A stretch of DNA of 64,000 nt, taken from assembly GCF_003032475.1 (NCBI RefSeq), contig NZ_CP028369.1, positions 2,728,001 through 2,792,000 on the forward strand, written 5' to 3'. The DNA comes from Streptomyces sp. P3. Lineage in GTDB: Bacteria > Actinomycetota > Actinomycetes > Streptomycetales > Streptomycetaceae. Positions within the stretch are counted from its first letter, which is position 1, and every line of letters begins with the position of its first letter. The translations under genes were made by a program, and so were the position numbers. Under the pieces are notes generated by a model. It saw only the letters and a program-made list of their open reading frames with translations. It had not been told where the DNA came from and made no database searches. Shown here in pieces: positions 18,318 through 51,899 of this stretch.

Positions 18318-18350
18318 AGTATGGGCCAGTCACCGAGGATGGGGAAGAGC

Positions 18351-21149: not shown

Positions 21150-21261
21150 CTGAAGGCACTCCCCGTGTCCCGTCTTCTTTTCTCGGCCGCGTACCGTTCG
21201 CGTCCGCTTCACGGCTACGCCCTTGCGACCGGCGGCCTGTCCCGTTTCGCGACGCTAGCAC

Positions 21262-21293
21262 GCACCCCGCCGGGCGGCTGCCCGACGGGGTGC
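21262..21293 (-). terminator. Terminator hairpin after the D,D-carboxypeptidase gene
   Basis: GCACCCCG, CCGGGC, a GGCT loop, then GCCCG-A-CGGGGTGC form a strong stem with one bulge. It lies just downstream of the stop of the minus-strand carboxypeptidase gene and upstream of the start of the next gene. Confidence 0.75.
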
Positions 21294-21320
21294 GGAAGGC
21301 GTGCGGACGGGCGTCGCGGG

Positions 21321-24014
21321 TCAGCCGACGCGGGTCAGCTTGTCCGAGAAGCCCGGCTCGGCCAGGTCCGTCTGCAGGGCGACCGGCACCTTCACCGCGC
21401 TGCTGGAGCCGTCGCCGACGGTGAGCGTGCCCACCGGGGTGCCGGCCTTGGCCGTGTGCGGCACCTCGCCGGCGGTGAACGACAGCTTCACCGTCATGCC
21501 CGCCCAGCCGGCCGTCGAGACGTCCTCGGTGATGACGACGGGCGTGTGGCCGCCGAGCCTGTCGTCCACGTACCCGACGACGTCGCCCTTCTTCAGGATC
21601 TTCGCCGAGGTGAGCGCGTCCTCGGCGGCGAGCAGCGCCGTCTTGCTGACCGCGTTGACCGTGGCGAGGATCTTCTGCTTGTGCTGGCCGAGGATCGCGC
21701 CGACCAGGATCACCGACTTCCCGTCGACCTTCTTGCGGGAGGCGAAGAGCAGGTTGCCGCCGGCCGCGGTGGTACTGCCGGTCTTGATGCCGATCGCGCC
21801 GATCTTGAACGGCAGCTCGTTGTAGTTGTTCCAGTACTTGCCGGTCGGGTCGGTCCAGCTCGCCGCGCTGGAGATGGCGACCAGGGCGGGCATCTTCACG
21901 AACGCCCGGCCGAGCTTCACCTGGTCCTCGGCCGTGGAGACGGTGGTCTCCTTCAGGCCCGAGGGGTCGGTGTACGTCGTGTTCGTCATCCCCAGTTCCC
22001 TGGCGGTGGCGTTCATCTTCTTCACGAACGCCGCCTCCGAGCCCGCGTCCCAGCGCGCGAGCAGCCGCGCGATGTTGTTGGCGGAGGGGATGATGACGGC
22101 CGACAGGGCCTGCTTCTCGGTGAGCCTGTCGCCGGCTTTGACGGTGTTGAGCGTCGACTCGTCGCCGGTGACGTCGTAGCCGCCCTCCTTCTCCGCCGTC
22201 GCGTCGACCTCGATCTGCGGGCCTTCCTCCCCGGCCTTCATCGGGTGGTCCTTGGCGATGATGTACGCGGTCATGGTCTTGGCGACGGAACCGATGGCCA
22301 CGGGAGTCTGCTTGCCGAAACTGCCCATCGTGCCGACTCCGTCGGCGTCCATCCAGCCCTGTCCCTCGTTCGGCCAGGGCAACTGCGTCCGGCCGCCCTC
22401 GAAGGTGTACGAGCTCTTCGCGGTCAGCGTGAGCGCGGTCGCCGGCAGCGGCCGCATGGCCTGCACGATCGCAAACACGAGGACCAGCAGGAGGACCAGC
22501 GGCGTCCAGATCTTGAGCCGCCGTCCGAGGGTGCGCAGCGGGGTCGGCGGGGGCGGCGGGGTGTTCGTCAGCTCGGCCAGCAGGTCCAGCGGCGGCTTCG
22601 GCGGCAGCGGCTGCTGCGTGGTCCGCTCGGGGCCGACCTGCGGGACGAACGCGGTGACGTCGGCGGGCGTCTGGGCGGCGGGCTTCGGCGGGCGGGGCTC
22701 GTCGAGCGGCTTGAGCGCGACGAACTTGCTCGTCCGCTCGGCCGGCGCCGTGGGCTTCTCGTCGGCGGTGCCGGTCTTCCCGGCGGTGTCGGCCGGGGCG
22801 GCGGTGTCGGTCGCGTCGGCCTTCTCCCCGCCCGGGCGGGGCTTGACGTCGCCGAGCTTCAGCATGGTGGTCGGCTGGTCGACGGCGGGCTTGGGCCGGG
22901 GGGTCTTGAAGACGGCGGTGGGCTGGTCGACGGGGGAGCGGTCGGCCCTGGCGTCCTCGGGCCCGGCGTCGGGCTTCCCCGCCTTCTCGGGCTCGCCGGC
23001 GTCCGACGCCCACTTCGGCGCGCGCTTGGCGGCCGGTCCCGCCCCGGCCTCGTCCTCCACCACGGCGGACGAGGCGGACGCGGCCGACTCGTCCGCGTTC
23101 TCGGGCCGCGCGTCCTCGGGCTCGTCGGTGACGTCGGTGTCCGGTCGCTCGTCGGTGTCCTCGGGCCGCCTGTCCTCGGGCTCGTCGGTGACGTCGGTGC
23201 CCGGTCGCTCGTCGGACTTCGCGGCGGCGCTCTCCACACGCACGTCGTCGTCGGAGGCGGCATCCGCGTCGTCGTCCGGGGCATCGTCCGAGACGGCATC
23301 CGCGTCGTCGTCCGAGACGGCATCCGAGACGGCATCCGAGGTCGCGCCCGCGGGTTCGTCCACGGGTTCGTCCGCTTCCCCGTCGGCCGAGTCGGCCGTG
23401 AGGGCCGTGGGGGCGCCCTCGGGGCTCTTGCCGTCCGCCGTGGCGACCCACTGGGCGACAGCCGCCCGCAGACGGTCCTCGCCGCCCTCGGGAGCCTCGC
23501 CGGGAGCCCCGGCGGCGTCCTCGGTCCCGTCGTCGCCCTCAGGGGCGTCCCTGGTGCCGTCGGCGCTCTCCCCGGCCGCTGCGGCCGTCCCGGCACCCTT
23601 CGTGTCACCGGAGTCGCCCGAGGCGTTCTCGGCGGCCTCAGGCTCCGCTTCCGGCTCCGTCTCCGCTTCCGGCTCCGCGGACCCGTTCCCGCCGCCCTCG
23701 GAAGCGTCGGTCCCGGAGGCGTCGGAGGCATCGGAGGCTTCGGCGTCGGTCTCCGCGGCTTCGGCCTTCGCGGACCCGGGCTCCTCGGGCTCCTCGGCCT
23801 CCTCGGTCTTCAGATCCCGTACCGAGAACACCCGCGTCGCCGTGTCCACGCCGCCGCCGCGGGCCGGCGAGGGCTCGCTGTCCCGCGCCACCGCGACCCG
23901 CGGATCGCGGATCTCGCGAGATTCCCGTGCCTCGGGAACCGTGTCCGCGCTCCCCGACGTCGGTTCTGCCGACGACTCGCGCTGCTTCGACCTGTCGGGG
24001 GACTCGCCCGCCAC
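21321..24014 (-). CDS. D-alanyl-D-alanine carboxypeptidase with long acidic cytoplasmic extension
   Basis: An 897-residue protein; GTG 24014 follows an AGGAGG site. The C-terminal 330 residues form a peptidase S11 (penicillin-binding protein 5-like) domain with Ser576-x-x-Lys579 (SVAK), Ser644-x-Asn646 (SANN) and Lys744-Thr-Gly (KTGS), so the catalytic set is complete. It trims the terminal D-Ala of wall peptides. A membrane helix (WTPLVLLLVLVFAIVQAM) near residue 490 anchors it. The 490 residues before that are low-complexity, rich in Glu, Asp, Ala, Pro and Ser, and would lie in the cytoplasm. Typical relatives are about 400 residues and have a signal peptide instead. The extension holds an imperfect tandem repeat (TDVTDEPEDRRPE / TDVTDEPEDARPE). 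Confidence 0.9.
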   Translation of the reverse strand: MAGESPDRSKQRESSAEPTSGSADTVPEARESREIRDPRVAVARDSEPSPARGGGVDTATRVFSVRDLKTEEAEEPEEPGSAKAEAAETDAEASDASDASGTDASEGGGNGSAEPEAETEPEAEPEAAENASGDSGDTKGAGTAAAAGESADGTRDAPEGDDGTEDAAGAPGEAPEGGEDRLRAAVAQWVATADGKSPEGAPTALTADSADGEADEPVDEPAGATSDAVSDAVSDDDADAVSDDAPDDDADAASDDDVRVESAAAKSDERPGTDVTDEPEDRRPEDTDERPDTDVTDEPEDARPENADESAASASSAVVEDEAGAGPAAKRAPKWASDAGEPEKAGKPDAGPEDARADRSPVDQPTAVFKTPRPKPAVDQPTTMLKLGDVKPRPGGEKADATDTAAPADTAGKTGTADEKPTAPAERTSKFVALKPLDEPRPPKPAAQTPADVTAFVPQVGPERTTQQPLPPKPPLDLLAELTNTPPPPPTPLRTLGRRLKIWTPLVLLLVLVFAIVQAMRPLPATALTLTAKSSYTFEGGRTQLPWPNEGQGWMDADGVGTMGSFGKQTPVAIGSVAKTMTAYIIAKDHPMKAGEEGPQIEVDATAEKEGGYDVTGDESTLNTVKAGDRLTEKQALSAVIIPSANNIARLLARWDAGSEAAFVKKMNATARELGMTNTTYTDPSGLKETTVSTAEDQVKLGRAFVKMPALVAISSAASWTDPTGKYWNNYNELPFKIGAIGIKTGSTTAAGGNLLFASRKKVDGKSVILVGAILGQHKQKILATVNAVSKTALLAAEDALTSAKILKKGDVVGYVDDRLGGHTPVVITEDVSTAGWAGMTVKLSFTAGEVPHTAKAGTPVGTLTVGDGSSSAVKVPVALQTDLAEPGFSDKLTRVG

Positions 24015-24201
24015 CGATGCCTCCTCGTGTGCCCGCACGCCGTCAGCGCGCCTGCCGAACCGTGAACAGCCCGCCCCGGACCCGCCTCGCGGCGTTGCCC
24101 GAACCATGTACCAGTGTCCTGTGTAGAGCGCTTGGCTCCTGCGGTAGACGAGAACGACATACCTACTGGTTCCACTACAAACAGGTCACGCACCCTCGAC
24201 A

Positions 24202-24235
24202 GATGAATGTGAGAGGGGTCACCCTGTCATTCATC
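24202..24235. promoter_or_regulatory. 34-bp inverted repeat upstream of the GPP34 gene
   Basis: GATGAATG (24202-24209) pairs perfectly with CATTCATC (24228-24235). The intervening sequence contains a second nested dyad, AGGG-GTCA-CCCT. The structure ends 5 bases before the ribosome-binding site of the GPP34 gene. It could be an operator or a leader hairpin affecting translation. Confidence 0.5.
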
Positions 24236-24252
24236 CACGCGGGGAGGCATGG

Positions 24253-25008
24253 ATGGGCAGGAGCCGCAGAACGATTCCGGAAGAGCTTCTTCTGCTGGCG
24301 TTGGACCCGACCACGGGTACCACCGCACAGCCGCAGTCGCTCGACCTTGGTCTGGCCGGAGCGCAGCTAGTGGAGCTGGCGCTGGCCGGGCGGATAGCCC
24401 CTGACGGGGATCGTATCGCCGTGGTGTCCCCACGGCCGACTGGAGACCCAACGCTGGACTGCGCGTTGGAGTTGCTGCGAAGGCGTGGCGCTCCCGTACG
24501 GGCTGTCCACTGGATCGGCGGGCCGCGTCTCGGGCTACGCCAGATCTACCTCTCGCATCTGGAGCGGTGCGGCATGGTGCATGCCGTGGCGGGTCAGATG
24601 TGCGGAGTACTGCCGACGACTCGCTACCAGGCGACGGACACCGACATCAGCCGGGAGATCAAGGCCCGGCTGGACTCCGCGATCCGCACCGGCGTGCCGC
24701 CGGACCCGCGGACCGCGGCGCTCGCCGCACTGGCGCACGCGGTCGGCCTCGGCAAGCACCTGTATCCGGGCAACGAGGGACGCTCGTCCCGTTCCCGGTT
24801 GCGGGACCTGATCAGGCACGACCCCATGGGCGGCCTCGTGGCGCACGCCGTGATGGACGTCCAGAACGGCGCGGCGGCACAGCCGCGCCGCAACCAGGCG
24901 CCCCCCGGCCGGCAGGCCGGACCGGGAGCCAGGCCCGCTCCGGAACCCGCCCGTGGCGTTCCGGCGCAGCCGCACCGCAACCCCATGGCGCGTGTGGTGG
25001 CCCTCTGA
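24253..25008 (+). CDS. GPP34 (GOLPH3/Vps74-like) family protein
   Basis: A 251-residue protein with GGGGAGG five bases upstream of the ATG. The N-terminal region RRTIPEELLLLALDPTTGT, then LGLAGAQLVELALAGRI and RPTGDPTLDCALELL, is the GPP34 pattern. Eukaryotic members bind phosphatidylinositol-4-phosphate at Golgi membranes; many actinobacteria carry paralogues of unknown role, presumably peripheral membrane proteins. The last 45 residues are a Pro/Gln/Arg-rich disordered tail. No operon partner is apparent. Confidence 0.9.
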   Translation: MGRSRRTIPEELLLLALDPTTGTTAQPQSLDLGLAGAQLVELALAGRIAPDGDRIAVVSPRPTGDPTLDCALELLRRRGAPVRAVHWIGGPRLGLRQIYLSHLERCGMVHAVAGQMCGVLPTTRYQATDTDISREIKARLDSAIRTGVPPDPRTAALAALAHAVGLGKHLYPGNEGRSSRSRLRDLIRHDPMGGLVAHAVMDVQNGAAAQPRRNQAPPGRQAGPGARPAPEPARGVPAQPHRNPMARVVAL

Positions 25009-25247
25009 GCCGTCAGACCTGAGACCTGTTCGGGAGCCGACGCGGCCCGCGCGGGGCGGTGCATCTGCCGCCCCGCGCGGACGTGTGTCGGGAGACGGCG
25101 GCAATCCTTCGGGGCCCGGTCCGAACCGGCGCGCAGCGGCCGCATATCCACCGTTTTCCAGCGGTGGAAAGCGCCTTGGTGGCAGTCTGCTGAACAGCAG
25201 ATACGCAAAGTGTTTGAGACAGACACGCAGCCGGAGGTGCACGTCCC

Positions 25248-26105
25248 GTGGCGTCCAATGTCAATCCCACCGTCAGACGACGCCGGTTGGGCCAGGAGCT
25301 GCGCCGGCTCCGTGAGCTCAAGGGCATGACGGCCGAAGAGGTCGCCGAGCGCCTGCTGGTGTCCCAGTCCAAGATCAGCCGGCTGGAGAACGGCCGTCGC
25401 AGCATCAGCCAGCGCGACGTCCGCGACCTGTGCGGGGTGTACGAGGTCGAGGACCAGCGGATGGTCGACTCGCTGATGGAGATGGCCAAGGACTCCCGCC
25501 AGCAGGGCTGGTGGCATGCCTTCGGCGACGTCCCGTACAGCGTCTACATCGGTCTGGAGACGGACGCGGCGAGCCTGCGCGTCTACGACCCCCAGGTGGT
25601 GCCCGGGCTGCTGCAGACCCGTCAGTACGCGGAGGCGCTGATCTCGGGCGCGCTGCCGGAGACCGCGCAGACGGAGATCGACAAGCGGGTGCAGGTGCGC
25701 ATGCGCCGGCAGGAACGGGTCTCGTCGGGCGAGAACCCGCTGCGGCTGTGGAGCGTCATGGACGAGTCGGCGCTCCGGCGGGTCGTCGGCGGCCGCGAGT
25801 TGATGCGGGACCAGTTGGAACACCTCGTCGAGCAGTCCCAGTTGCCGCATGTCACGGTCCAGGTGATCCCGTTCGAGATGGGTGCGCATCCGGGCCTCAA
25901 CGGCCAGTACGCCATCCTCGAGTTCCCCGACACGGCCGACTCCAGCGTCGTCTACATCGAGGGCGTCACCAGCGACCTCTATCTGGAGAAGCCGAACGAC
26001 GTGCAGAAGTACAGCGTGATGTACGAGCACCTGCGCGCCCAGGCTCTGAACGTGGAGCAGTCCCGCCAGTTCATCGCCGACATCGCCAAGGGGTATGTGC
26101 GGTGA
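25248..26105 (+). CDS. XRE-family HTH regulator with DUF5753 sensor domain
   Basis: A 285-residue protein beginning at GTG 25248 behind CCGGAGGTG. Residues 10-65 form a Cro/CI helix-turn-helix (LGQELRRLRELKGMTAEEVA, then VSQSKISRLENGRRSISQRD). The remainder, with YDPQVVPGLLQTRQYAEALI and YAILEFPDTADSSVVYIEG, is the DUF5753 domain. Streptomyces encode dozens of such regulators, usually beside a short DUF397 gene as here; known pairs such as the WhiJ type act in development and antibiotic control. Specific target unknown. Confidence 0.92.
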   Translation: MASNVNPTVRRRRLGQELRRLRELKGMTAEEVAERLLVSQSKISRLENGRRSISQRDVRDLCGVYEVEDQRMVDSLMEMAKDSRQQGWWHAFGDVPYSVYIGLETDAASLRVYDPQVVPGLLQTRQYAEALISGALPETAQTEIDKRVQVRMRRQERVSSGENPLRLWSVMDESALRRVVGGRELMRDQLEHLVEQSQLPHVTVQVIPFEMGAHPGLNGQYAILEFPDTADSSVVYIEGVTSDLYLEKPNDVQKYSVMYEHLRAQALNVEQSRQFIADIAKGYVR

Positions 26106-41642: not shown

Positions 41643-42005
41643 TGCGCTCTTTCATTCGTCGGATCCGGGGCCGTGAAGGACACCGGCACGCCCCGCGCCG
41701 AGGCGCACGCCCATGTAATCCGGCGGCACGCCGCCCGGGGCGCAGGGCGCGGGAGGCAGGTGCCGAACTACACCCGTCCAGCCGCAGCGACCACAAGGTC
41801 CTCGCCGGCCTGCGAGGTGTCCCGGCTGGGCCCGTCAAAGGTGGACGAGGATCCACTCGGCCTCGACCTCGACGACCGCGCCTTCCAGGGGAGGCGTCCG
41901 GGTCGTGGCGCTGCCGCGCTGCCGAACATATGGCCTTGATCGCTCTTTCCCGCTGCGCCGCGATTTCGTAGGGTCCGATCATTCGAGAACGGCTCTGGGG
42001 GGCGG

Positions 42006-42350
42006 GTGGCTGTTCCTGTGGCGCGGAGTCGTGTTCTGCGCGTGATCCGCGGCGTGGGTTCGTTCCTGAAGGAATTCCTGACGGAGCTCGTCGGTGAGGC
42101 GATTCTGTCGGTCATTGTCTGCCTCGCCGTGGCCGGTCTGGCTCTGGCGTTCGTCTGGGGGTGGGAGCGCAGCCCGCTCGTCACCGGCGGTGCAGGTGGT
42201 GCCCTGCTGGCCTTCCTCGTCCATGGCGGCTGGGAGCTGCTTCGTCCCTCGAAGCCAGGGCGGCGCGGGCGACTGGCCGGCGCGGCGGCCGCCACGTTCG
42301 GCGTGGCGGTCGTATTCATCACCTACGCATGGTCGTGCAATTGCTCCTGA
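42006..42350 (+). CDS. Small integral membrane protein
   Basis: A 114-residue protein from GTG 42006. Three hydrophobic segments: ILSVIVCLAVAGLALAFVWG, LVTGGAGGALLAFLVHGGW and LAGAAAATFGVAVVFITYAW. It has a basic loop (RPSKPGRRGR) and ends in SCNCS. A TAGGGT -10 lies at 41969-41974. No family recognised. Confidence 0.6.
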   Translation: MAVPVARSRVLRVIRGVGSFLKEFLTELVGEAILSVIVCLAVAGLALAFVWGWERSPLVTGGAGGALLAFLVHGGWELLRPSKPGRRGRLAGAAAATFGVAVVFITYAWSCNCS

Positions 42351-42533
42351 GCAGTCAGGGCACAGACGAGCCTGACCGTCGCCCCGCCGGGCGCGGACCC
42401 CTTCGTCCCGGAGCAACTCGCCGGAGCGGGGGCGCCGGCGTAAACCGGGCGATGCCCGTATCTCCAGGAGACGCCTGGGCTGTTTCGAAGCGCCGGCCGG
42501 CATGCCCGGCATCGGCACGCCGTCAGGCAGGCC

Positions 42534-42965
42534 CTACTCGTTCCCGCCCCGGGGCGGCCACCCGATGACGCCTTCCGCTCGAACATCGCGCAGGGACGCT
42601 CCCTCGAACCGGGCACCGGTGACGTCGGTCAGCCCGAGCGGGTGCACGCCGGTGTTCACGCTTGCGAACCTGGCATCGCTCAGATCGGTGTCGCGAAGGT
42701 CAGCACCCCGTAGATCGCATCCGGCCAGGCTGACCTCGCGCAGTGAAGCCCCGCGCAGGTCTGCGCCGCTGAGGTCGCAGAACGTGAACCAGCACCCGTC
42801 CAGGGTGGCGTGGCGTAGATCGGTCCCGACGAACGAGCAGCGGGTGAAGCGCAGTTGCGACGTGCGAGCGGAAGCGAGGTTCTGGCTGGTGAAGTCCTCA
42901 CCCTTCACAGCCGTATAGCGGTGCAGCGTGGCAAGCCGTTGTCTCGCGGTCAGTGGCGTGGTCAT
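42534..42965 (-). CDS. Pentapeptide repeat protein
   Basis: A 143-residue protein from ATG 42965. After a 25-residue N-terminus come pentapeptide A(D/N)Lxx-type repeats: FTSQNLASARTSQLRFTRCS, TFCDLSGADLRGASLREVSL, AGCDLRGADLRDTDLSDARF. These fold into a right-handed quadrilateral beta-helix; in some bacteria such proteins mimic DNA and shield gyrase, but most have unknown roles. It borders the mobile region to its right. Confidence 0.88.
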   Translation of the reverse strand: MTTPLTARQRLATLHRYTAVKGEDFTSQNLASARTSQLRFTRCSFVGTDLRHATLDGCWFTFCDLSGADLRGASLREVSLAGCDLRGADLRDTDLSDARFASVNTGVHPLGLTDVTGARFEGASLRDVRAEGVIGWPPRGGNE

Positions 42966-43084
42966 GTGTGCCAGCGTGTCAGCCGGGTCGGTGGCCGTCG
43001 CCCGGATATCCGACAGTTCGTCGTCCACCGGCCGATCGCACCGGGCCGGGCTGGTCCGGCAACGGGTGCGGCCACCGGCCACCG

Positions 43085-43262
43085 GTGCGTGACGACCGCA
43101 TCGTCCATGCCGTCGAGAACGGTCAACTCATCGTGCGGGTCCTGGCCGTCGGCAACCGCCGCGAGACCTACCGTCAGGTTCCGTAGGAGCCTGGCAGAGC
43201 GGGCCGGAATGACTCAGCCCCACCTCTCCCGGATGGAGGGCGGCGACCGCGCCAGCCCGCCT
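43085..43262 (+). pseudogene. Remnant of a RelE toxin / XRE antitoxin pair
   Basis: GTG 43085 opens 33 codons reading VRDDRIVHAVENGQLIVRVL, AVGNRRETYRQVP, the C-terminal strands of a RelE-type toxin. The next bases, in another frame, read SLAERAGMTQPHLSRMEGGD, nearly the same as the helix-turn-helix of the intact antitoxin at 47702 (LAERAGMTQPQVSRMEGGD). Both genes are truncated: the toxin has no N-terminus and the antitoxin stops at a junction near 43250 with phage-derived sequence. Confidence 0.75.
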
Positions 43263-43315
43263 TCGAGGGCGCGGCGGTGTTCGGCGAACTCCAGGGCGAT
43301 CTCTCTGTCGAGCAT
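43250..43315 (-). pseudogene. 5' stub of a phage-type gene
   Basis: ATG 43315 behind AGGAGCAGCAGACGCC reads MLDREIALEFAEHRRALEGG and then meets the antitoxin remnant. The good start signals and sensible protein show it was a real gene placed after the holin-like gene. The rest is deleted. Confidence 0.5.
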
Positions 43316-43333
43316 GGCGTCTGCTGCTCCTGA

Positions 43334-43606
43334 TCAGTTGATGGCGGTGGAGGCGGGGTCGCTCCTGGCCGGAAGCCACGAAGCCGTACCGGCGCGACCG
43401 AGCACGGAGCCGACGGCGCCCTTGACCACGGCGAGGTGCGGGAATCACGGCGATTGCCGCGGACTGAAGCGCGGACAGGGTGACGACGTTGGTCGTGCCG
43501 GACGCGACGAGGAGGCGAGGAACACCTCGACGTACGTCAGCACGACGCGCTCGGCGATGTCGGCGATGTCGGCGAGGAGCTTGGGAATTCCGGTGGGTGC
43601 GGTCAT
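43334..43606 (-). pseudogene. Frameshifted phage holin-like gene
   Basis: ATG 43606 reads MTAPTGIPKLLADIADIAER, VVLTYVEVFLA, after which the frame fails. In the next frame TTNVVTLSALQSAAIAVIPA continues, and after a second shift LAVVKGAVGSVLGRAGTASW, LPARSDPASTAIN ends at 43334. Read together this is the small membrane holin-like protein found after lysins in Streptomyces phages. Two frameshifts inactivate it. Confidence 0.7.
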
Positions 43607-43634
43607 GGGGGGAGGAATCCTCTCGACGCGTGGA

Positions 43635-43930
43635 TCAGGGCTTGGGGACGCGGAGCTTGGCCCGGCTGGTCGGGCCAGGGATGCCGTCGGCGTCGTCGCC
43701 GGGGTAGCCGAGCTTGCGCTGCCAGGCCGCGTAGGAGCGGCGATCGGCCTCGGTCCAGGAGGCGCCGGGCCCCTTGCTGTAGTTGCCGCAGCCCTCGGCG
43801 ACGAGCCGCTTGCCCATCGCGTGATCAGAGCCGAGCGGTGGCCGGTACGGAAGTAGCCGGCGCCGGGGAACGGCGCGTACTTGGGCTCGTCCTCCGGCGA
43901 AGGGCTGCTCGCCGGCTTTCCGCTGAGGTG
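43635..43930 (-). pseudogene. Frameshifted 3' end of a phage endolysin / peptidoglycan-binding protein
   Basis: One frame reads EDEPKYAPFPGAGYFRTGHR, SALIT; a frame one base away continues MGKRLVAEGCGNYSKGPGAS, WTEADRRSYAAWQRKLGYPG, DDADGIPGPTSRAKLRVPKP. The second part is the usual C-terminal wall-binding module of Streptomyces phage lysins. A single lost base between ACG and CGATG explains the break (expected ITAMGKR). The catalytic N-terminal domain is absent. Confidence 0.75.
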
Positions 43931-44000
43931 ACGAGCGGCCGCCCCGGGTGCCACCGCCGCGTACGAGCCAGTGGTTCCCCGGCGAGCGGGCCCGCGGAAC

Positions 44001-44249
44001 TCACGGGGCGGAGGACGTGGTCTGTGTCGGCGTCCGTGAGTCGCCGCCCGTCGCCGCCGGGGGTGAGAACGCGAACAGGGCCACCAACGCGGCGACCACC
44101 GTCCCCCAGACGCAGATCGCGCCCACGAGATCGCGCGCATGCGGGCCGCCGCCCGTCGCGGCCTGGTCCCTGAGGCGGTATACGGCCACCGCCGCCGCCG
44201 TCGCGACCAGCAGGATCAGGACTGCTGTGCCGTCCATTCGCAGTGTCAT
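44001..44249 (-). CDS. Small membrane protein next to the phage lysis remnant
   Basis: An 82-residue protein from ATG 44249 with GAAGG upstream. Helices TAVLILLVATAAAVAVYRL and LVGAICVWGTVVAALVALFAF are separated by a basic loop. It ends in a Thr/Ser-rich tail. It lies upstream of the lysin and holin remnants on the same strand and may be a phage or integrative-element gene; it is the only intact frame of that group. Confidence 0.6.
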   Translation of the reverse strand: MTLRMDGTAVLILLVATAAAVAVYRLRDQAATGGGPHARDLVGAICVWGTVVAALVALFAFSPPAATGGDSRTPTQTTSSAP

Positions 44250-44898
44250 TGCCGGGCCTTCCGAGGATCGGGGCCTGCCCGCCGGCGTCCGGTGAGGATT
44301 CCGGGCGGGAAGGCGCGACCGATGTGCTGCGTCGTGGCCTCGGATCGTGGGACGTAAGGGGCCGGACAGCCGCCGTGCAAGCATCCTGACATCCCGTTTT
44401 CACGGTCCGGGGGATTCTCAACTGCCGTCAGTCGCCTGTGAGTTCAGGAGTACCTGACGTATGAGGTCAGAGTAGGGGATTCTCCCGGAGCCTCGTCATG
44501 AGCCGTATGTGTACAAACCCGCGGGTCGCACTTTGACGTTTTGCACAAGTCGGTCGGCGCGGGCGACCAGTGCGTCAGGTTCCGGTGCGGCGCGGTGCGT
44601 CCCTGCCCGATGTCCGCTCCGCCCCCGGCCCCCGTGCCACGCGGTGCCGGGGCTCGGCCCCGCCCAGGTGCCTCACGCCCCGTTCGGCGGACTGACTGTC
44701 CACCGCTACCCCTCCTGGCGCATCTCGTATAGACGAGTGGATGGGAACGTACCTGTGAGCACCATCCGTGTTGAGACCTCCGCCGCGACCTTCACGCGGG
44801 TGGCGGCTGACGCAGGGTTGCGGGTGGTCCGGCTGCACGTCGCGTGGCGCGGCTGCGCCACGCTGCTGACGGCGGCCGGCGTCGCGCCTTTGACCTGG
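44250..44898. other. Intergenic region without a supported gene
   Basis: No family-like frame or good start signals were found. The stretch separates phage remnants from the leftmost tRNA-derived repeat and shows ordinary high GC. Confidence 0.5.
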
Positions 44899-44940
44899 TG
44901 CCCCCGGCAGGATTCGAACCTGCGACCCCCGCTTCAGGAG
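44899..44940 (-). repeat. tRNA-Arg(CCT) 3'-half fragment (att-like, outermost)
   Basis: 42 bases match the 3' half of the tRNA at 48243-48315 with two mismatches. Similarity stops exactly at the GGAG (CTCC on the tRNA strand) of the anticodon loop, as in the copy at 47061. This is the expected footprint of a tyrosine-recombinase att site. Confidence 0.8.
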
Positions 44941-45060
44941 TGGGACCGGATCCTTGCCGGGGGGTGCCTCGCGCTGCCGCGCGGTGCTGTTTCCCCTGGT
45001 CAGAACCGCACGGCGAGCCACTTGATCCGGCTCATGCCGCCCCGTATCGGGCTGTCCGCT

Positions 45061-45142
45061 CACGCATCGCTCACGCATCGCTCACGCATCGCTCACGCAT
45101 CGCTCACGCATCGCTCACGCATCGCTCACGCATCGCTCACGC
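45061..45142. repeat. 11-bp tandem repeat (CACGCATCGCT)7
   Basis: Seven perfect copies of CACGCATCGCT and a partial eighth. The unit resembles CGCTCACGCAAACGG, the start of the long direct repeats flanking the toxin-antitoxin islet at 46971 and 48152. There are no spacers, so this is not a CRISPR array. Confidence 0.95.
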
Positions 45143-45172
45143 GCTGCCGGCTGCCGAGCAGCGCATAGCCAG

Positions 45173-45739
45173 TCAGACCTGCCCGAGGTCGATCTCCACC
45201 GGGAAGGGGGCCACTACCTTGAGGACGCCGGTGAAAACGTCTCCGTCCCGGTAGGTCTTCGTTGCGGGGTCGAGAACGTAGGTGTACACGAGAGGAACGC
45301 CTGTCGCGGCCTGCTCGATCCGCCAGTGGAAGCCGATGCCCGCCTTGGCGTACTGGTCGACCTTCACGATCCGGTCGGTGGTCTCCGAGCCCGGCGACAC
45401 CACCTCCGCGACCAGCAGCACGTGCTCAGGGCGGGTGGGGGTGACATCGATCGTGTCTGCGCGGTACACGACGACGTCCGGGCGGCGATTGGTGAGCGGA
45501 ACGTCCTGAAGCCGGACGTCGAAGTCGGTGTCGGCGTTCCACTCCGGGCCGGCGGCGGCATCCAGGGCGTTCGCCAGAATGCGGGCCGGCCGGTTGTGTC
45601 GCTTGGACGCGCTCGGGCTCACGACGACCATCCCGTCCACGATCTCGATGCCGGCGCACTGTTCCTCGGACCAGGAGTCGTACTCCTGCGCCGTGATCTG
45701 CTCATGCATCCACGCCGGGGCCACCATCTCGGCCGTCAT
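45173..45739 (-). CDS. Uma2-family (restriction-endonuclease-like) protein
   Basis: A 188-residue protein; ATG 45739 follows GGGAGGTG. The PD-(D/E)xK-type core is visible: GIEIVDGMVVVSPSASKRHN, TNRRPDVVVYRADTID (Asp), then VLLVAEVVSPGSETTDRIVK, VDQYAKAGI (Glu and downstream Lys). These match the Uma2/DUF820 family, widespread in Streptomyces and cyanobacteria; function unproven, a nuclease role is inferred from fold. Confidence 0.9.
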   Translation of the reverse strand: MTAEMVAPAWMHEQITAQEYDSWSEEQCAGIEIVDGMVVVSPSASKRHNRPARILANALDAAAGPEWNADTDFDVRLQDVPLTNRRPDVVVYRADTIDVTPTRPEHVLLVAEVVSPGSETTDRIVKVDQYAKAGIGFHWRIEQAATGVPLVYTYVLDPATKTYRDGDVFTGVLKVVAPFPVEIDLGQV

Positions 45740-46063
45740 GAAGCACCTCCCGGACACTGTGCTGCGGGCTCGCTCCCGCTGGGTTCTGCGTACGGTCTGC
45801 CACCCGTCCGGCATGCTGACCTCGCTCACGCCCTCCCCGTCGGTGACTAGTGGCCTACTCCGGAGAGGGCGGCAGCGGCCGGCCCGGCGAGTCCCGGCAA
45901 AACGGGAGAGGACGCCGCCACCTCGCCGACGTCCTCGAAGTCCTGAAGGTACAGGTGCTTGCGCAGTCGTCGCCCCGGTACGTCACACCCTCCAGCGCAC
46001 CGCGGCGGAACCCGTCGCATCGACCGCAGGTAACGGAGGATCCCATCGGCGCACGGTCAGCGG

Positions 46064-46561
46064 TCAGTCGGGGGAGCCGGTGAGTCGTCGGAGTGAGGTG
46101 CGGCGGCGTTTCGTCAGACCTTCTCGACTCGCACGGAGTGTCCCGCGAGGAGTTGAGCCATGTCGTCCGGTGTCGGACGTGAAGACGGTTGCCTCAGCTC
46201 CCTGCCCGGCTTCCCGCCCTGCCACAGCCGCCAGGATGGCGTCGATGGCGTACTTGTGACCATGCAGACCGGCTGCCTTCAGCATGTCGCGCGCCATGGC
46301 GATCATCTGGTCGTCCGTGTGTACGACGCGGATCCGGGACAGTGTCCAGTTCCACAGCGCCTGCTTCGACGTTTCGCGAGGGTCCCATGCTTCCAAGGTC
46401 GTGAGCGCCGACGTGACGATCGGGATGTCGAGCCGCGGAGCCGTTTTGATCAGCGCGGCCATCTCCCGATCGCCGTGAACCGACTTGGAGAGGGCCTCGG
46501 AGTCGAACACGAAAACGCGCTGTCGCGGCCGGTGCAGTTTCGCTCGGACGGTGCGGCTCAC
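46064..46561 (-). pseudogene. VapC-type PIN-domain toxin with frameshifted C-terminus
   Basis: 165 codons from GTG 46561, which overlaps the antitoxin stop (GTGA). The four acidic residues of PIN ribonucleases are present: Asp20 (FVFDSEAL), Glu57 (LTTLEAW), Asp107 (YAIDAIL) and Asp130 (VFTSD). Just after Asp130 the frame shifts. In the neighbouring frame the expected ending PDDMAQLLAGHSVRVEKV is found, stopping at 46114. The present reading adds 35 unrelated residues. The toxin may be inactive, or active with a changed tail, since the catalytic set lies before the shift. Confidence 0.8.
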
Positions 46562-46824
46562 GGGGCCTCGTCTGAATGCGAGTGCTGCTCGTCGTGCCAG
46601 CTGTCAATCGCGGCGATACGGTCCAGCGCTGCTTGCTGCTCGTCGTCCGTCACGGCGCCGTGCTCTTCTTCGAGGCGTTCAGCCAACTCGCGCAGTCGGT
46701 CCATGGCGTCCTGATGAGCGGCGGCGGCCGCAATGTAACTGGACACCCCGCGCGCATCGACGCGTTCCTTGATCGATTCCACCAGCTCTTCCGGCACGGT
46801 GATAGTGATCTTCCGAGTTGCCAT
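46558..46824 (-). CDS. Ribbon-helix-helix antitoxin (VapB-like)
   Basis: An 88-residue protein. MATRKITITVPEELVESIKE is an N-terminal ribbon-helix-helix; the rest is a helical, acidic toxin-binding tail ending HDEQHSHSDEAP. The start ATG is inside the palindrome at 46820-46838, so no ribosome-binding site exists and the message is probably leaderless. It overlaps the toxin by four bases. Confidence 0.85.
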   Translation of the reverse strand: MATRKITITVPEELVESIKERVDARGVSSYIAAAAAHQDAMDRLRELAERLEEEHGAVTDDEQQAALDRIAAIDSWHDEQHSHSDEAP

Positions 46825-46838: not shown

Positions 46839-46970
46839 ATGTCTGGTGTGGTGTGGTGTGGTGTGGGTGGCGCCTCGGCTGCCGCTTCACGCTTTGCCCG
46901 GGAAGGCCGGAGTCAGGGCGTGAGGGGCGTAGAGACCTTGCGGTGCGCGTGGGTACCTGGTGATTCGCCC

Positions 46971-47102
46971 GCTCACGCAAACGGCCCCGGACGAGGAGTC
47001 CGAGGCCGAGCAAAACCCCTCCCTGGTGGATAAACCCCAGGTCAGAGCGGTAACGCGTTGTGCCCCCGGCAGGATTCGAATCTGCGACACCCGCTTTAGG
47101 AG
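46971..47102. repeat. Left copy of the long direct repeat, including tRNA-Arg 3' half
   Basis: GCTCACGCAAACGGCCCCGG opens a 132-base segment that matches 48152-48284 with interruptions. Its last 42 bases (47061-47102) equal the 3' half of tRNA-Arg(CCT) with one mismatch and stop at the anticodon loop. It is the left boundary of the toxin-antitoxin islet. Confidence 0.85.
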
Positions 47103-47333
47103 TTTTCCCTGATCAAGGCTGTGACCTGCGGAAACATTGGCGATGTGGTGCCTGGCCTGCGAAAACACCCCTCCGTGGTTCTCACGAGGTTTCCCGGCCT
47201 CGTGTGTGCTGAATCCGTTCCGGGCCGGCCACGAGGTGGACGACCTCGCGGGCGCGGCGCGACCAGGGAGGGCGCAGGCTGCGAGCCTGTGGAGACTTGC
47301 GCTATGCAATTGAAGGTATATACCGTTGATTGC

Positions 47334-47702
47334 ATGACGGAGCGGTGGGAGATCGAGATCGAAGCCGAAGTGAGGGATTGGCTTGAGCTGCTTCCGTTCC
47401 GCCTCTACCGGCGTGTGGAGGACAAGACGGACCGTCTCTTGGACGAGCCGACGACTCTCGGTGAGCCGTACTCGCGGCACCTGGGCGGCAAGCTGCGTGA
47501 ACTGCGCTTCGAACTGGACGGCGAGGCCGTGCGCATCCCGTACTGGCTCGCTCCCGGGCAGCGGATTGTTCTGCTGACAGTGTTCCGCAAGACGAGGATG
47601 CGCGAGGCGGCGGAAGTCGAGCGTGCGCAGCAGGCCCAGAAGGTCTGCGAAGCCGAGCACGGTCGAGCCGAGCACACCTACGATCGCCGCAAGGAGAGTT
47701 GA
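47334..47702 (+). CDS. RelE/HigB-type toxin
   Basis: A 122-residue protein of the phage-derived Gp49-like HigB/RelE group: WEIEIEAEVRDWLELLPFRL, LGEPYSRHLGGKLRELRFEL, YWLAPGQRIVLLTVFRKTRM. The LRELRF and VFRKT segments carry the basic residues typical of ribosome-dependent mRNA interferases. ATG 47334 was chosen because a TACCGT -10 and the palindrome GGTATATACC lie just before, fitting a leaderless start; ATG 47304 is ten codons earlier. The stop overlaps the antitoxin ATG. Confidence 0.85.
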   Translation: MTERWEIEIEAEVRDWLELLPFRLYRRVEDKTDRLLDEPTTLGEPYSRHLGGKLRELRFELDGEAVRIPYWLAPGQRIVLLTVFRKTRMREAAEVERAQQAQKVCEAEHGRAEHTYDRRKES

Positions 47703-48025
47703 TGAATCACAGCACGTGGAGGACGCGCCGGGCCCGGCAGCTTGCGGGTGAGACGGTGGAGTACGACCAGGAGTACGTCGACGCGCGGCTGGCCGGCGAT
47801 CTCGGGCAGGCGGTCTACGACCGTCGGATCGAGCTTGGCCTGTCCCAGGCTGAACTGGCCGAGCGGGCTGGGATGACGCAGCCTCAGGTGTCCCGGATGG
47901 AGGGCGGTGACACTGTGCCCACTCTCCCGCTGCTGCGACGCCTGGCCAAGGCCCTGGACGGCACCCTGAACGTGGCCATCGACGAGGGTGACTCCCACGT
48001 CACCTTCACCCCACACGCCGCCTGA
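47702..48025 (+). CDS. XRE-family antitoxin (HigA-like)
   Basis: A 107-residue antitoxin with AAGGAG upstream; its ATG shares one base with the toxin stop. The helix-turn-helix is in LGLSQAELAERAGMTQPQVS, RMEGGDTVPTLPLLRRLAKA. Toxin-first order is that of HigBA-type modules. The remnant at 43188 is a close relative, so a second copy once existed 4.5 kb away. Confidence 0.9.
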   Translation: MNHSTWRTRRARQLAGETVEYDQEYVDARLAGDLGQAVYDRRIELGLSQAELAERAGMTQPQVSRMEGGDTVPTLPLLRRLAKALDGTLNVAIDEGDSHVTFTPHAA

Positions 48026-48151
48026 AACCGTCCTGGCCGGGGCCGTCGAGGGCATCGTCGACCTGAGTCAGTGAGTGTCGCGGATGCCTCGCCGATGAGG
48101 TTGACCGGGCGAGCATGCCGCCGCCGAAGCTCTCGACGAAGAAGTCCTTTC

Positions 48152-48284
48152 GCTCACGCAAACGGCCCCGGATGAGGATCGCGAGGCCGAGCGGAGGGCT
48201 GACCTGGGGGGGGAAACCCCAGGTCAGCTGCTTGATGTGTTGTGCCCCCGGCAGGATTCGAACCTGCGACACCCGCTTTAGGAG
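48152..48284. repeat. Right copy of the long direct repeat, including tRNA-Arg 3' half
   Basis: Right partner of the repeat at 46971. It contains the palindrome CTGACCTGGGGGGGAAACCC, AGGTCAG between the flanking segment and the tRNA, a probable transcription terminator for the tRNA, and continues into the intact tRNA gene. Confidence 0.85.
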
Positions 48285-48315
48285 AGCGGTGCTCTATCCC
48301 CTGAGCTACGAAGGC
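48243..48315 (-). tRNA. tRNA-Arg (anticodon CCT)
   Basis: 73 bases fold as a full cloverleaf. Acceptor GCCTTCG pairs with CGGGGGC with two G-T pairs; D-arm GCTCAGGGGATAGAGC; anticodon stem CCGCT/AGCGG around loop CTCCTAA with anticodon CCT; T-arm GCAGG-TTCGAAT-CCTGC. It reads AGG codons. The 3' end CCA is not encoded. It is the integration target whose 3' half is repeated at 47061 and 44899. Confidence 0.97.
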
Positions 48316-48522
48316 AGGGGCTTGTGGGTTACCTGTTGAGGATCCTTGGGGTGGATCTTCGACCTGTAGTACAAGCCCGCTGGTCAGACCCGGTGCGACG
48401 CTTTCCGCTCTGTTGCCTGAGCGGACGGCGCGGCGTACCGATGACCGACCAGGGACAGCCTAGCGGATGTGCTCCGCGGAGCGTCGTCGGTATGGGGGCG
48501 GAGGGTTTTCGCCGGCGTCCCC

Positions 48523-48640
48523 GCGCCTCCCGGCGTTCCCGCGCCTCCCGGCGTTCCCGCGCCTCCCGGCGTTCCCGCGCCTCCCGGCGTTCCCGCGCCT
48601 CCCGGCGTCCCCGCGCCTCCCGGCGTACCGGCGTCCCCGC
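48523..48640. repeat. 18-bp tandem repeat (GCGCCTCCCGGCGTTCCC)
   Basis: Four perfect units from 48523, a fifth with one change, then degenerate copies. It lies between the tRNA and the glycosidase terminator and is probably non-coding. Confidence 0.9.
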
Positions 48641-48664
48641 GCCTCTCGGCGTACCGGCGTACCG

Positions 48665-48698
48665 GCGCCTCCCGCCGGCCGGGGCCGGCGGGAGGCGC
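48665..48698 (-). terminator. Perfect 16-bp-stem terminator of the glycosidase gene
   Basis: GCGCCTCCCGCCGGCC, a GG loop, then its exact complement, ending six bases from the minus-strand glycosidase stop codon. Confidence 0.85.
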
Positions 48699-48704
48699 GG
48701 GCGG

Positions 48705-51700
48705 TCATGACTTGCCGAGCAGGCGCCAGATCTGGTTCTTCTTGGTGGTCAGGGTGCTGCCGGTGTCGCAGGTCCACTGGTGGACGAGGGCGCCGGGGGC
48801 GGTGGAGATGGTGCTGACGTCGACGCACTTGCCGCTGTGTACGGCGACGAGCTGGTAGTCGTGGCTGTTGCCGAGGGCGGTCACCGGGCGGAGGGTGAAC
48901 CGCTGGTTGGCGGCGCCGGTGCACGTCCACTGCTGGACGGCGGCGCCGTTGACGGTGGAGACCTGGGAGATGTCGAGGCACTTGCCGCCGGCGTGGTTGA
49001 CGACGGTGTAGGTGTCGGTGGCGCCGCTGACGGGGTGGAAGTCGAAGATCTGCTCCTGTCCGCCGGTGCAGGTGTTCTGCTGGTACTGGGTGCCGTCGGA
49101 GGTGGACTGGGCGGGGTCCTCGAGGCAGAGCGAGCTGTGCTGGGCGACGGCCGTGGAGGAGAAGCCGGTCGCGGCGCCGATGTGCAGGTTCTGCGGGGCG
49201 AAGGAGACCTCGTCCAGGTGGGGCGCCGAGCTGGAGCGCATGGGCTGTCCGATGTCGCTGCCGCCGCCGGAGTAGACGACGCCGATGGTCGTGCCGTCGT
49301 AGTTGTAGAGCTGTGAGGCGGTGAACTTCACCGTGTTGGCGCCCTGGGCCAGGGTCACCGGGACGGTGTGGGTGCCGAACTGGTTCCAGTGCAGGGTGCT
49401 GGCGAAGTTGACGCGGGTGGCGGTGCCGCCGTTGACGCTGACGTCGGCGTGCTCGGCGTACAGGTCGGGGTTGTAGTGGTTGGAGGGCAGTTCCTCGGCG
49501 TTGGCGTACCGCATGGTCATGGCGTAGGTGCCGGCCGTGGGCGCGTTGACTGCGAGGGTGAGGGAGTTGGCGGTTCCGTTGCCGATGCCGGTGACGACGC
49601 CGCCGTCGGCCTGGGTGTAGGTGGTGTCGGTGGCCGCGGTGCCGGTGAGGGTGCCGTTCTCGGCCTGGTAGGTGACGACGTTGCCGGTGGTGACGGCGTC
49701 GCCGGCGCCGAACGGGGTGACGGCCAGGTCGTCCAGGGTCAGGGTGCCGCTGGTGCCGGTGACCGCGACCTTGTTGATGCCGGCGGTCAGGTGGACCCGG
49801 TTGGTGGAGGTGGACCAGGCGCTGGTCGTCGTGCCGGAGAGGATCTGGTCGTCGGCGGCCTTGCCGTTGACGGTGAGGCCGGCCCGGCCGGTGTTGCGGT
49901 AGCGGGCTGTCAGGTCGGCGTAGCCGTCCTGCGCGGAGTAGACCCAGAAGGTCGCGGACCTGCCGGAGGTGAGGTTGACCGCGCCCGCGCCGGACTGGCC
50001 CTGGGAGGCGTAGGTGGCGGTGCCGCTGTCGGAGAGCGTCGCCTGCTCGGCCTCGTAGAGCGTGGTGCCCTGGACGGCGGCGTCCTTGTACCTCAGGTCG
50101 ATCTTGTCGATGATGGCGTCGCCGGCGGTCTTCGCTCCGTTGTCGCCGGTGGTGGCGAGGGTGATGGTGTGGCTGCCGGCGGTGAGGTGCACGATGGTGT
50201 CGCTGTGCCCCCAGACCACCCACTGGAAGCCGACGGGTATGTCGATCCTGGCCGAGGCTCCGCCGTCGACCCGCGCGTACACGTTCGTCGGGCCCTTGAC
50301 GTCGGCGTCCTTGGCGTAGCTGTTGCCGAACACCGACAGGTCGTAGTCGCCGGTGGTGGGGACGGAGACGGGGAAGGAGATCACCGTGGTCGAGCCGGTG
50401 CGCAGACCGCCGACGTCCTTGGTGCCCGAGGTGGCGAACTTACCGACGTTGCCGGTCGTGCCCTCGGTGTTGATGTTGTAGCCGCTGCCACTGAGGGTGG
50501 CGTTCTCGGCCTCGTACGTGCCCGTCCAGGTGCTGTCGGAGGCCGTGGCGCTGCCGGTGCCGCCCGGGGAGACGATCACCTGGTACGCGGACATCGCGTC
50601 GAGGGTGAGCGGGAGGGTGATCGAGCCGTCGGAGCCCACGGCGACGTCGGCGTCGGAGAGCCGGGTCGGGGTGGCGGCCGCGCCGACGTAGCCGCTGTAG
50701 CGGTCCTGGAACACGCTGACGTGCACGGTGCTGCCGAAGACCGCGGGGTCGATGTTCTTGATCACCGTGCTGGAGGCACCGCTGGTGCCGCCGCCGGCGA
50801 GGATGACGCGGGCCTGCTTCTTGGCCGTGTCGAGGCTCGCCACGCCCTGGAGGGTGTACGCGGCATTGGCCTCGGTGCTGGTGACCTTGACGGTGCTGCC
50901 GCCCTTCATGGAGCTGTACCAGTTGTACAGCCACCACTGGGCGTTGGGGGTGTTCTGGGCGGCGGCCGAGTCGCCGAGGTTGCCGTTGATGTTCCAGTAC
51001 GGCAGGTTGCCGTCGACCTTCTCGTCCTCGATGGCCGCGATCCACTGGACCATCTGGCCGGGGTCGGTCAGGTGGTAGCGGTGGGCGTACTCGTTGAGGT
51101 TGACGGTGATCGGGGAGGTGATCCCCGCGGCGGACTCCACCGCGCGGTAGGAGTTGACGGTGTTGCGCACGTCGGCCGGGCTGCCCAGGGTGTGCCAGGT
51201 CACCACGTCGGGCAGGCAGTTGTTGGCCTTGCAGTAGGTGAGGAAGCCGCTGAGGGAGGAGCTGGTGTAGCTGGAGGTGTTGGGTCCGGCCAGCCGTGCT
51301 GCGGGCCAGAGGCCCTTGATGAAGTTGTAGGTCTGGCGCCACTCGGCGTTGAAGTTGGCCAGCGCGGTCGAATTGGTGCGCATGCCACTGAACCAGTTCA
51401 GGTCGGGCTCGTTGTAGGGGATGAAGACGATGTGGCTCGCGTAGGGGCTGGCCTTCGCCTGCTCGACCTGGGTCTTCATGTTCGCCTGGTATTCCGCGTA
51501 GCTCGCGCGCTCGTACGTGTTGCGGTACACGTCCGTCATGTAGATGAACACGTCGCCGCCGCCGCTGTCGACGAAGGGCTTGGCGATCTCCAGCGCGTCC
51601 GAGCCGGGGTGCTGCTGTCCGTCCTGGTACTTGGTGTTGGTGGTCGTCAGCCCCATCCCCTCGATGAGGTTGTTCGTCGGCACGTCCGGCCCGTACAGGC

Positions 51701-51899
51701 CGTACAGCGCCCCGGAGGCGCCGCCGCGGAAGGCTCCGGTGGTGGTGCCGAGGTCGACAGTGAGGGTGGGGGTGGCGGCGGAGGCCGGCGTCGCCGTCAC
51801 GCTGGTGACGCCGGCGATGACGGTCAGCGGGAGCAGCGTCCTGGTGATGCCGTGGAGAAGGCGTCTCTTGGCCGAGCGCCTTTGCCCGAGTCGTGGCAT
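48705..51899 (-). CDS. Secreted clan GH-A glycoside hydrolase with CBM35-like and ricin-type domains
   Basis: A 1064-residue exported enzyme. Signal peptide ends near ATPASA. Residues 45-460 resemble a GH39-like TIM barrel: VFIPYNEPDLNWF has the acid/base Glu after Asn, and ITVNLNEYAHRYHLTD has the probable nucleophile Glu. Three beta-sandwich modules starting YEAENATLSGSGYN, YEAEQATLSDSGTATYA and YQAENGTLTGT look like CBM35/CBM6 domains. A C-terminal ricin B (CBM13) domain has repeats GGKCLDISQVSTVNGAAVQQ, WTC and GKCVDVSTISTAPGALVHQW. Polysaccharide substrate unknown. It is the last gene of the sugar locus. Confidence 0.88.
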   Translation of the reverse strand: MPRLGQRRSAKRRLLHGITRTLLPLTVIAGVTSVTATPASAATPTLTVDLGTTTGAFRGGASGALYGLYGPDVPTNNLIEGMGLTTTNTKYQDGQQHPGSDALEIAKPFVDSGGGDVFIYMTDVYRNTYERASYAEYQANMKTQVEQAKASPYASHIVFIPYNEPDLNWFSGMRTNSTALANFNAEWRQTYNFIKGLWPAARLAGPNTSSYTSSSLSGFLTYCKANNCLPDVVTWHTLGSPADVRNTVNSYRAVESAAGITSPITVNLNEYAHRYHLTDPGQMVQWIAAIEDEKVDGNLPYWNINGNLGDSAAAQNTPNAQWWLYNWYSSMKGGSTVKVTSTEANAAYTLQGVASLDTAKKQARVILAGGGTSGASSTVIKNIDPAVFGSTVHVSVFQDRYSGYVGAAATPTRLSDADVAVGSDGSITLPLTLDAMSAYQVIVSPGGTGSATASDSTWTGTYEAENATLSGSGYNINTEGTTGNVGKFATSGTKDVGGLRTGSTTVISFPVSVPTTGDYDLSVFGNSYAKDADVKGPTNVYARVDGGASARIDIPVGFQWVVWGHSDTIVHLTAGSHTITLATTGDNGAKTAGDAIIDKIDLRYKDAAVQGTTLYEAEQATLSDSGTATYASQGQSGAGAVNLTSGRSATFWVYSAQDGYADLTARYRNTGRAGLTVNGKAADDQILSGTTTSAWSTSTNRVHLTAGINKVAVTGTSGTLTLDDLAVTPFGAGDAVTTGNVVTYQAENGTLTGTAATDTTYTQADGGVVTGIGNGTANSLTLAVNAPTAGTYAMTMRYANAEELPSNHYNPDLYAEHADVSVNGGTATRVNFASTLHWNQFGTHTVPVTLAQGANTVKFTASQLYNYDGTTIGVVYSGGGSDIGQPMRSSSAPHLDEVSFAPQNLHIGAATGFSSTAVAQHSSLCLEDPAQSTSDGTQYQQNTCTGGQEQIFDFHPVSGATDTYTVVNHAGGKCLDISQVSTVNGAAVQQWTCTGAANQRFTLRPVTALGNSHDYQLVAVHSGKCVDVSTISTAPGALVHQWTCDTGSTLTTKKNQIWRLLGKS

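Follow-up and report, generated by a model that had tools for sequence, protein, structure and literature searches.

The window, a stretch of 64,000 nucleotides from Streptomyces sp. P3, contains a single tRNA gene detected by ARAGORN, an intact tRNA-Arg(CCT) on the minus strand (48242–48315), which anchors the array described here and is referred to as T. A 43-nt core (copy 1, 48242–48284) spans its 3' half, starting at nucleotide 32 in the anticodon loop and running to the 3' end, and two further cores were located on the same strand by sequence matching, at 47060–47102 (copy 2) and at 44898–44940 (copy 3, 2 mismatches, 95% over 43 nt). An 18-nt piece of the core, searched with up to 3 mismatches, gave 3 matches against 0.06 expected, which rules out chance. 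Along the tRNA direction, the order of parts is T, F', HigA, HigB, Eend, core, F, RHH, PIN, Uma2, Rep, core, and an integrase fragment. Core copy 3 was absent from an earlier sequence-only reading of this DNA, and its position indicates that a second unit lies directly downstream of the HigBA unit. The locus thus comprises two consecutive units, T-F'-HigBA-Eend-core followed by F-RHH/PIN-Uma2-Rep-core, with the integrase fragment after the third core.

The first two cores belong to longer direct repeats. A search against the own genome placed the copies at 46970–47102 and 48151–48284 (133–134 bp, 81% identity over 134 nt, E 2e-29), so that the boundaries given by the sequence-only reading (46971–47102 and 48152–48284) were accurate to within 1–2 bp. 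An ungapped alignment breaks the pair in two, with 85% identity over 78 nt and 75% over 69 nt. The composition of the repeat was also recognized in that reading as a tRNA half with about 90 bases of flank; we find the 43-nt core, the 3' half of tRNA-Arg(CCU), together with a segment of ~90 bp past the 3' end of the tRNA, designated F.

Unit 1 begins with F', the right-hand copy of this segment (48151–48241, minus strand), which contains a terminator-like hairpin. It is followed by a junction segment delimited by flank comparison (48026–48150) and by two plus-strand genes convergent to T, encoding a HigA-type antitoxin with an HTH_3 domain (47702–48025, 52.7 bits) and a HigB-type toxin matching PF05973 (Gp49/HigB; 47304–47702, 46 bits, cut-off 23.9). 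PF05973 is a member of the RelE/ParE superfamily (clan). The arrangement of a PF05973 toxin gene followed by an HTH antitoxin gene is that of HigBA, and the toxin and antitoxin functions are predicted from these matches. No other genes were found between the two core copies, in agreement with the earlier description of an islet encoding a toxin and an antitoxin alone. The conserved segment Eend (47103–47240, minus strand), recognized by its recurrence across genomes, lies directly before core copy 2, which closes the unit.

Unit 2 starts with the left copy, F (46970–47059), and all of its parts lie on the minus strand. A ribbon-helix-helix (RHH) protein, the probable antitoxin (46558–46824), and a PIN-domain protein, the probable toxin (46064–46561), probably form a second toxin-antitoxin pair. 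Their matches fall just under the Pfam cut-offs (19.7 bits against 20.5, and 18.4 bits against 23.6), and a relative of the PIN protein in genome G168 passes at 24.1. The next gene belongs to the Uma2 family (45173–45829, 61.7 bits), and the end segment Rep (44941–45172) adjoins core copy 3, which closes the unit. The fragment beyond it (44740–44888, plus strand) is similar to the 3' part of the AICE tyrosine-integrase gene located beside T in G040 and G020.

Several features surround the array. A large CBM35/ricin-lectin gene is situated just upstream of T (48705–51899) and also adjoins T in G013, and a GC-rich 18-bp tandem repeat occupies 48512–48680 between the two. No core (≤8 mismatches) was present at any of 34 loci with relatives of the gene upstream of T on the other contigs scanned. 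Beyond core copy 3, about 3 kb (41700–44700) shows little coding signal by codon composition and may be decayed element DNA. The genes at 19203, 21321, and 25248 (19203–26105) are inverted in both order and direction with respect to T when several relatives, L089 among them, are taken as the reference, whereas those at 18321 and 17490 keep both.

The core as an attachment site and its copies in Streptomyces

Phage RP3, in its annotated attP core, and phage VWB, in its annotated attP, both carry the 43-nt core without a single mismatch, and this core is described as a proven phage attachment core (PMC13346255, partial text). The two phages share this core with the window array, but their arms bear no similarity to F, Eend, or Rep except for short chance matches, and the VWB integrase is 26–32% identical to the array integrases. 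Agreement with the tRNA stops 5' of nucleotide 32 at 85 non-tRNA copies of the core, defining a sharp core edge at this nucleotide. At position 6 of the core (tRNA nucleotide 37, beside the anticodon), 18 of 85 non-tRNA cores (≤4 mismatches) carry a different base, as does no intact tRNA gene among those counted; the variation could mark the side of crossover or selection on the tRNA.

At least one core (≤3 mismatches) is present in 376 of 392 Streptomyces genomes, the own genome included. Two or more copies were counted in 191 of the 392, three or more in 79, four or more in 32, and five or more in 15, and the reversed-pattern control gave 0 in the same table. In some complete chromosomes the copies cluster on one strand, as in G418 (8 of 9 in 48 kb), G143 (7 in 53 kb), G256 (5 in 31 kb), and G162 (5 in 24 kb), while six copies are dispersed over both strands in G346.

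We considered tRNA-Arg(CCU) as an exceptional duplication site and rejected this on the basis of a specificity control, in which the tRNA-Arg(CCG) half was also often duplicated. Among 35 genomes, 7 of which had been chosen for many CCU copies, the CCG half occurs at least twice in 15 and at least three times in 2, against 19 and 12 for the CCU half; with those 7 and the own genome removed (n = 27), the counts are 10 and 2 for CCG and 11 and 4 for CCU. Stacking as such is therefore general. In the own genome, the 3' half of a tRNA-Arg(CCG) (G000:C1 620889, 634993, and 641016; L003, L006, and L008) recurs 14 kb downstream and, as a partial copy, 20 kb downstream. The two downstream copies share the next ~60 bp, a pattern of tRNA half plus start module at another tRNA.

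Modules at the unit ends and recurrence of units across species

The flanks of 126 core sites (35 T and 91 others) were compared, drawn from 50 joined segments that represent 61 of 78 fetched loci plus the window. Of the 17 loci omitted, 12 have T and lack a second core within the fetched stretch, and the remaining 5 are HigBA loci without a core. Arrays were chosen for many cores or for HigBA/Eend matches, and homologous core sites are not independent of each other.

The sequence-only reading held that the flank of the tRNA had been duplicated along with the tRNA half. Instead, an F-like segment lies directly after 36 of the 126 core sites (34 by a stricter adjacency rule) and after six successive cores of one array in G143, identifying F as a start module. 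Duplication of a native host flank was rejected once F proved to be such a repeated module. Tandem duplication of the tRNA half and its flank followed by deletion, which had also been proposed, would account for two direct repeats of exactly this composition, yet we consider it highly improbable. The two F copies share 81% identity, and in each other's list of 35 relatives they take places 24 and 30, where a recent duplicate would come first; F moreover has several relatives in other species and opens many unrelated units. With a partial match set aside (G143 30911, ~46 nt, top-ranked for both copies), the left F is 94% identical to the F after T in G023 and F' is 88% identical to one in G007. 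The repeat that reads as a duplicated flank is the common start of successive units. Other units open with other hairpins, and at 83 of the 126 sites none of 30 shuffles folds as stably as the first 60 nt. Fold z-scores are −5.2 for window F', −2.7 for the left F, and −6.3 for the HigBA start in G228, and the start modules probably act as terminators of the restored tRNA.

The opposite ends of the units also recur. Among the matches listed, Eend is found in at least 29 genomes, mostly without HigBA; where both coordinates are listed (19 cases), it lies directly against a core in 17. Eend precedes 31 of the 91 non-tRNA cores and Rep precedes 14, and both are end modules of units. The motif GCGTGAGCG occurs in 96 forward and 11 reverse copies in 948 kb of segments; 63 of the forward copies and none of the reverse ones lie ≤200 nt from a core, a zone of ~5% of bases. 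In the window, it is present at the far ends of F' (one copy) and F and as eight copies every 11 bp in Rep (45057–45142), making it a candidate arm-type integrase site.

The islet had been expected to be lacking from some strains or its repeat to occur elsewhere, and the wider comparison bears this out. Among the matches listed, HigBA-like DNA (≥79% identity over ≥333 nt) is found in at least 16 of 391 other genomes, and core-F repeats are present in other species. In 10 of the 16 genomes, a core or T is located ≤1 kb upstream of HigBA in the tRNA direction, HigBA following T in G228, G044, and G392 and a non-tRNA core in G317, G180, G022, and G284. The other 6 have no core within the ~19-kb stretches fetched around HigBA, so HigBA also occurs outside arrays. 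HigBA relatives lacking a nearby tRNA core lie at L141, L142, L143, L136, L137, and L146, and L142 contains two HigBA-like matches 5 kb apart.

Whole units and parts of units recur with different neighbours. G180 and G317 share a PIN unit of 1.26 kb that matches at 92% along 1263 nt, beginning at the core edge and running slightly beyond the next core, and upstream of it the two genomes have 117 bp of Eend alone in common. The start of window unit 2 is found again in G162, where the similarity (84% over 1003 nt) sets in immediately behind the core. Uma2 recurs together with Rep and a core in G143, G256, G408, G049, and G007, at varying positions relative to F. In G162, a 2.6-kb unit and a core are located between T and an integrase element that directly follows T in G418 (87% over 925 nt), and the two species represent the site in occupied and in empty form.

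Among 215 site pairs between genomes with downstream homology, the homology begins ≤10 nt from the core in 79 and further off in 136, and 68 of the 79 show no adjacent upstream similarity. These breakpoints bear on whether RecA-dependent recombination between repeated cores and arms, rather than an integrase, shuffles the units. The 43-nt cores and arms of 75–95% identity do form direct repeats on which RecA could act, and unit 1, which appears chimeric, has a junction outside the core. However, homology breaks many times at the core edge although the arms past it are also similar, and the core is the proven phage attachment core noted above. We therefore regard recombination by RecA as possible but rather unlikely.

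The chimeric reading of unit 1 comes from its start. Where HigBA stands close behind T or a core elsewhere, the spacer is 31–74 bp with a different hairpin, whereas the window spacer from T to HigBA measures 212 bp and consists of F' and a segment (48030–48126) that has a 78% match in G160 alone among the site flanks compared. Since the usual HigBA start hairpin is absent and F' is in its stead, F' would have taken the place of that hairpin.

A search of relatives for an empty site yielded no two genomes whose difference was precisely the islet. Judged by the upstream side, the nearest relative is G013 (95.7% over 1642 bp). It possesses T, yet across 13 kb it lacks F, HigBA, and a second core and shows no more than a 41-nt Eend-like piece, and it is for this reason uninformative as an empty site. 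Genomes with T followed directly by F were rejected as empty sites, as Rep-core occurs further on in G023 and G388. In the plasmid and phage collections, no record covered ≥80% of the islet.

Cargo, integrases, and the origin of the units

The cargo of unit 1 appears to be maintained. The ratio omega is 0.05–0.15 for HigB in 9 genome comparisons and 0.04–0.15 for HigA in 13, with 0.64 in a fourteenth (G180), which indicates purifying selection on the coding sequences of HigBA. Of 16 other HigBA loci, 7 have a toxin frame of full length and without gaps, and 13 have such an antitoxin frame. Seven of 12 units shorter than 1.6 kb carry a toxin gene, 2 of the 7 being typed by DNA similarity to Pfam-tested units, and this share is a biased estimate of enrichment because the arrays were chosen for many cores or HigBA/Eend matches.

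Candidate helper machinery is encoded in related arrays. Tyrosine integrase genes are located beside T or a core in G040, G023, and G418. The element beside T in G040 carries a PF00589 gene and an FtsK-type transfer gene, the latter marking it as AICE-like, and the window fragment beside core 3 resembles this type of integrase. In G023, the integrase gene follows F and is in two overlapping frames. A search of the own genome yielded no close relative of three array integrases, the best matches reaching 33%, 44%, and 47% identity (the third interrupted by 2 stop codons), which suggests that the window units are now stranded; they may be immobile relics. Integrases of 39–88% identity have been reported to share one tRNA-Arg site (PMC9513070, partial text), so a helper integrase for the window units may still exist.

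Taking these observations together, we think it likely that the window holds two CIME-like units, att-bounded and integrase-less, in a tRNA-anchored accretion array, the first unit being chimeric. The earlier view of a non-autonomous, att-bounded islet is borne out to this extent: unit 1 has a core at each end that matches phage attP cores, and a toxin and an antitoxin as the sole genes found. In this reading, Streptomyces AICEs and phages insert themselves by tyrosine recombinase into the 3' half of tRNA-Arg(CCU), and every insertion leaves one core copy and brings a fresh tRNA 3' half to which a terminator-like start module is joined. A series of insertions and losses would then have produced the two small integrase-less units and the integrase fragment at the third core, in an order of events that we infer from the present arrangement. 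As both attachment arms and cores are kept, the units should be movable by the integrase of another element with the same target, or should travel with such an element after it has inserted next to them, as for a CIME. Loss of the unit would be counter-selected by the toxin-antitoxin pair, a presumed addiction role.

A competing explanation, to which we assign somewhat less than even weight, is a passive graveyard in which the units are deletion leftovers of an autonomous AICE, IME, or prophage, nothing small has moved, and shared units were inherited or travelled within larger elements. The integrase fragment at 44740–44888, the lack of a close integrase relative in the own genome, and the toxin frame being intact less often than the antitoxin frame (7 against 13 of 16 loci) fit such decay, and AICE decay and remnants are on record (PMC9513070, partial text). 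On the other hand, the same minimal units recur between species with different neighbours, and the low omega of the toxin in all 9 comparisons argues against mere leftovers.

Relation to known elements and significance

A CIME is an element that has lost its integration and transfer genes and kept attL and attR (PMC5704250, partial text). Each window unit is bounded by cores, and no integration or transfer genes were found in units 1 and 2 by ORF and Pfam analysis. Like CIMEs in ICE-CIME accretion, the units have att sites at both ends and are stacked in tandem at one tRNA. The likeness is one of anatomy, and units of the window type differ in measuring 1.0–2.2 kb, in carrying a toxin-antitoxin pair, and in being recurrent and reshuffled in several species. 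Start and end modules are common to the window and to integrase-bearing elements in G023 and G388-like arrays, and no parent of unit 1 was identified. Neither unit is an AICE, as the integrase, replication, and traB-type transfer genes of such elements were found in neither, the integrase fragment lying beyond the third core.

Array architecture at a target of this type has precedents. AICEs and defective AICEs accrete at a Streptomyces tRNA-Arg gene with a remnant kept (PMC9513070, partial text), AICEs Sav3708 and Sav3728 lie in tandem at a tRNA-Arg, and the Frankia element Fean6303 has three repeats reaching beyond tRNA-Arg (both PMC3218068, partial text). The window shares with these the tRNA-Arg target type, several elements between identical direct repeats, a remnant at the site and, with Fean6303, repeats that run past the tRNA end. 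The accreted elements described there carry at least traB or are one remnant, whereas the window units consist of a toxin-antitoxin pair and ends. In a literature search covering part of the literature, none of the titles and abstract openings listed dealt with arrays at a tRNA whose units hold nothing but a toxin-antitoxin pair. CIMEs and accretion at tRNA-Arg are already known; what looks new is the variant with minimal toxin-antitoxin units that recur in several species.

Integron cassette arrays work alike in outline: their cassettes are small, bear a promoter or a toxin-antitoxin pair, each end in a recombination site, and line up in one direction. The window site differs in being a tRNA 3' half with flanking arms, and no IntI was noticed there. 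We tentatively raise the idea, itself rather doubtful, that in Streptomyces the tRNA-Arg(CCU) 3'-half arrays serve as a cassette platform resembling an integron. Minimal cassettes, in many cases toxin-antitoxin pairs, with a start module (their own tRNA terminator), an end module, and a core would circulate singly between species and be inserted, excised, and reordered by the integrases of an AICE or phage sharing the target.

The array may also matter for genetic tools, as VWB-type integrative vectors target this tRNA-Arg core (PMC13346255, partial text) and about half of the sampled genomes (191/392) carry extra core copies, half-sites that might act as attB. If units this small move, the tRNA gene is a shared cassette port at which two short ends suffice and no integrase of their own is needed, and the toxin-antitoxin pairs would keep the stack from loss. 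Tiny gene cassettes may thus spread by using the machinery of larger mobile elements.
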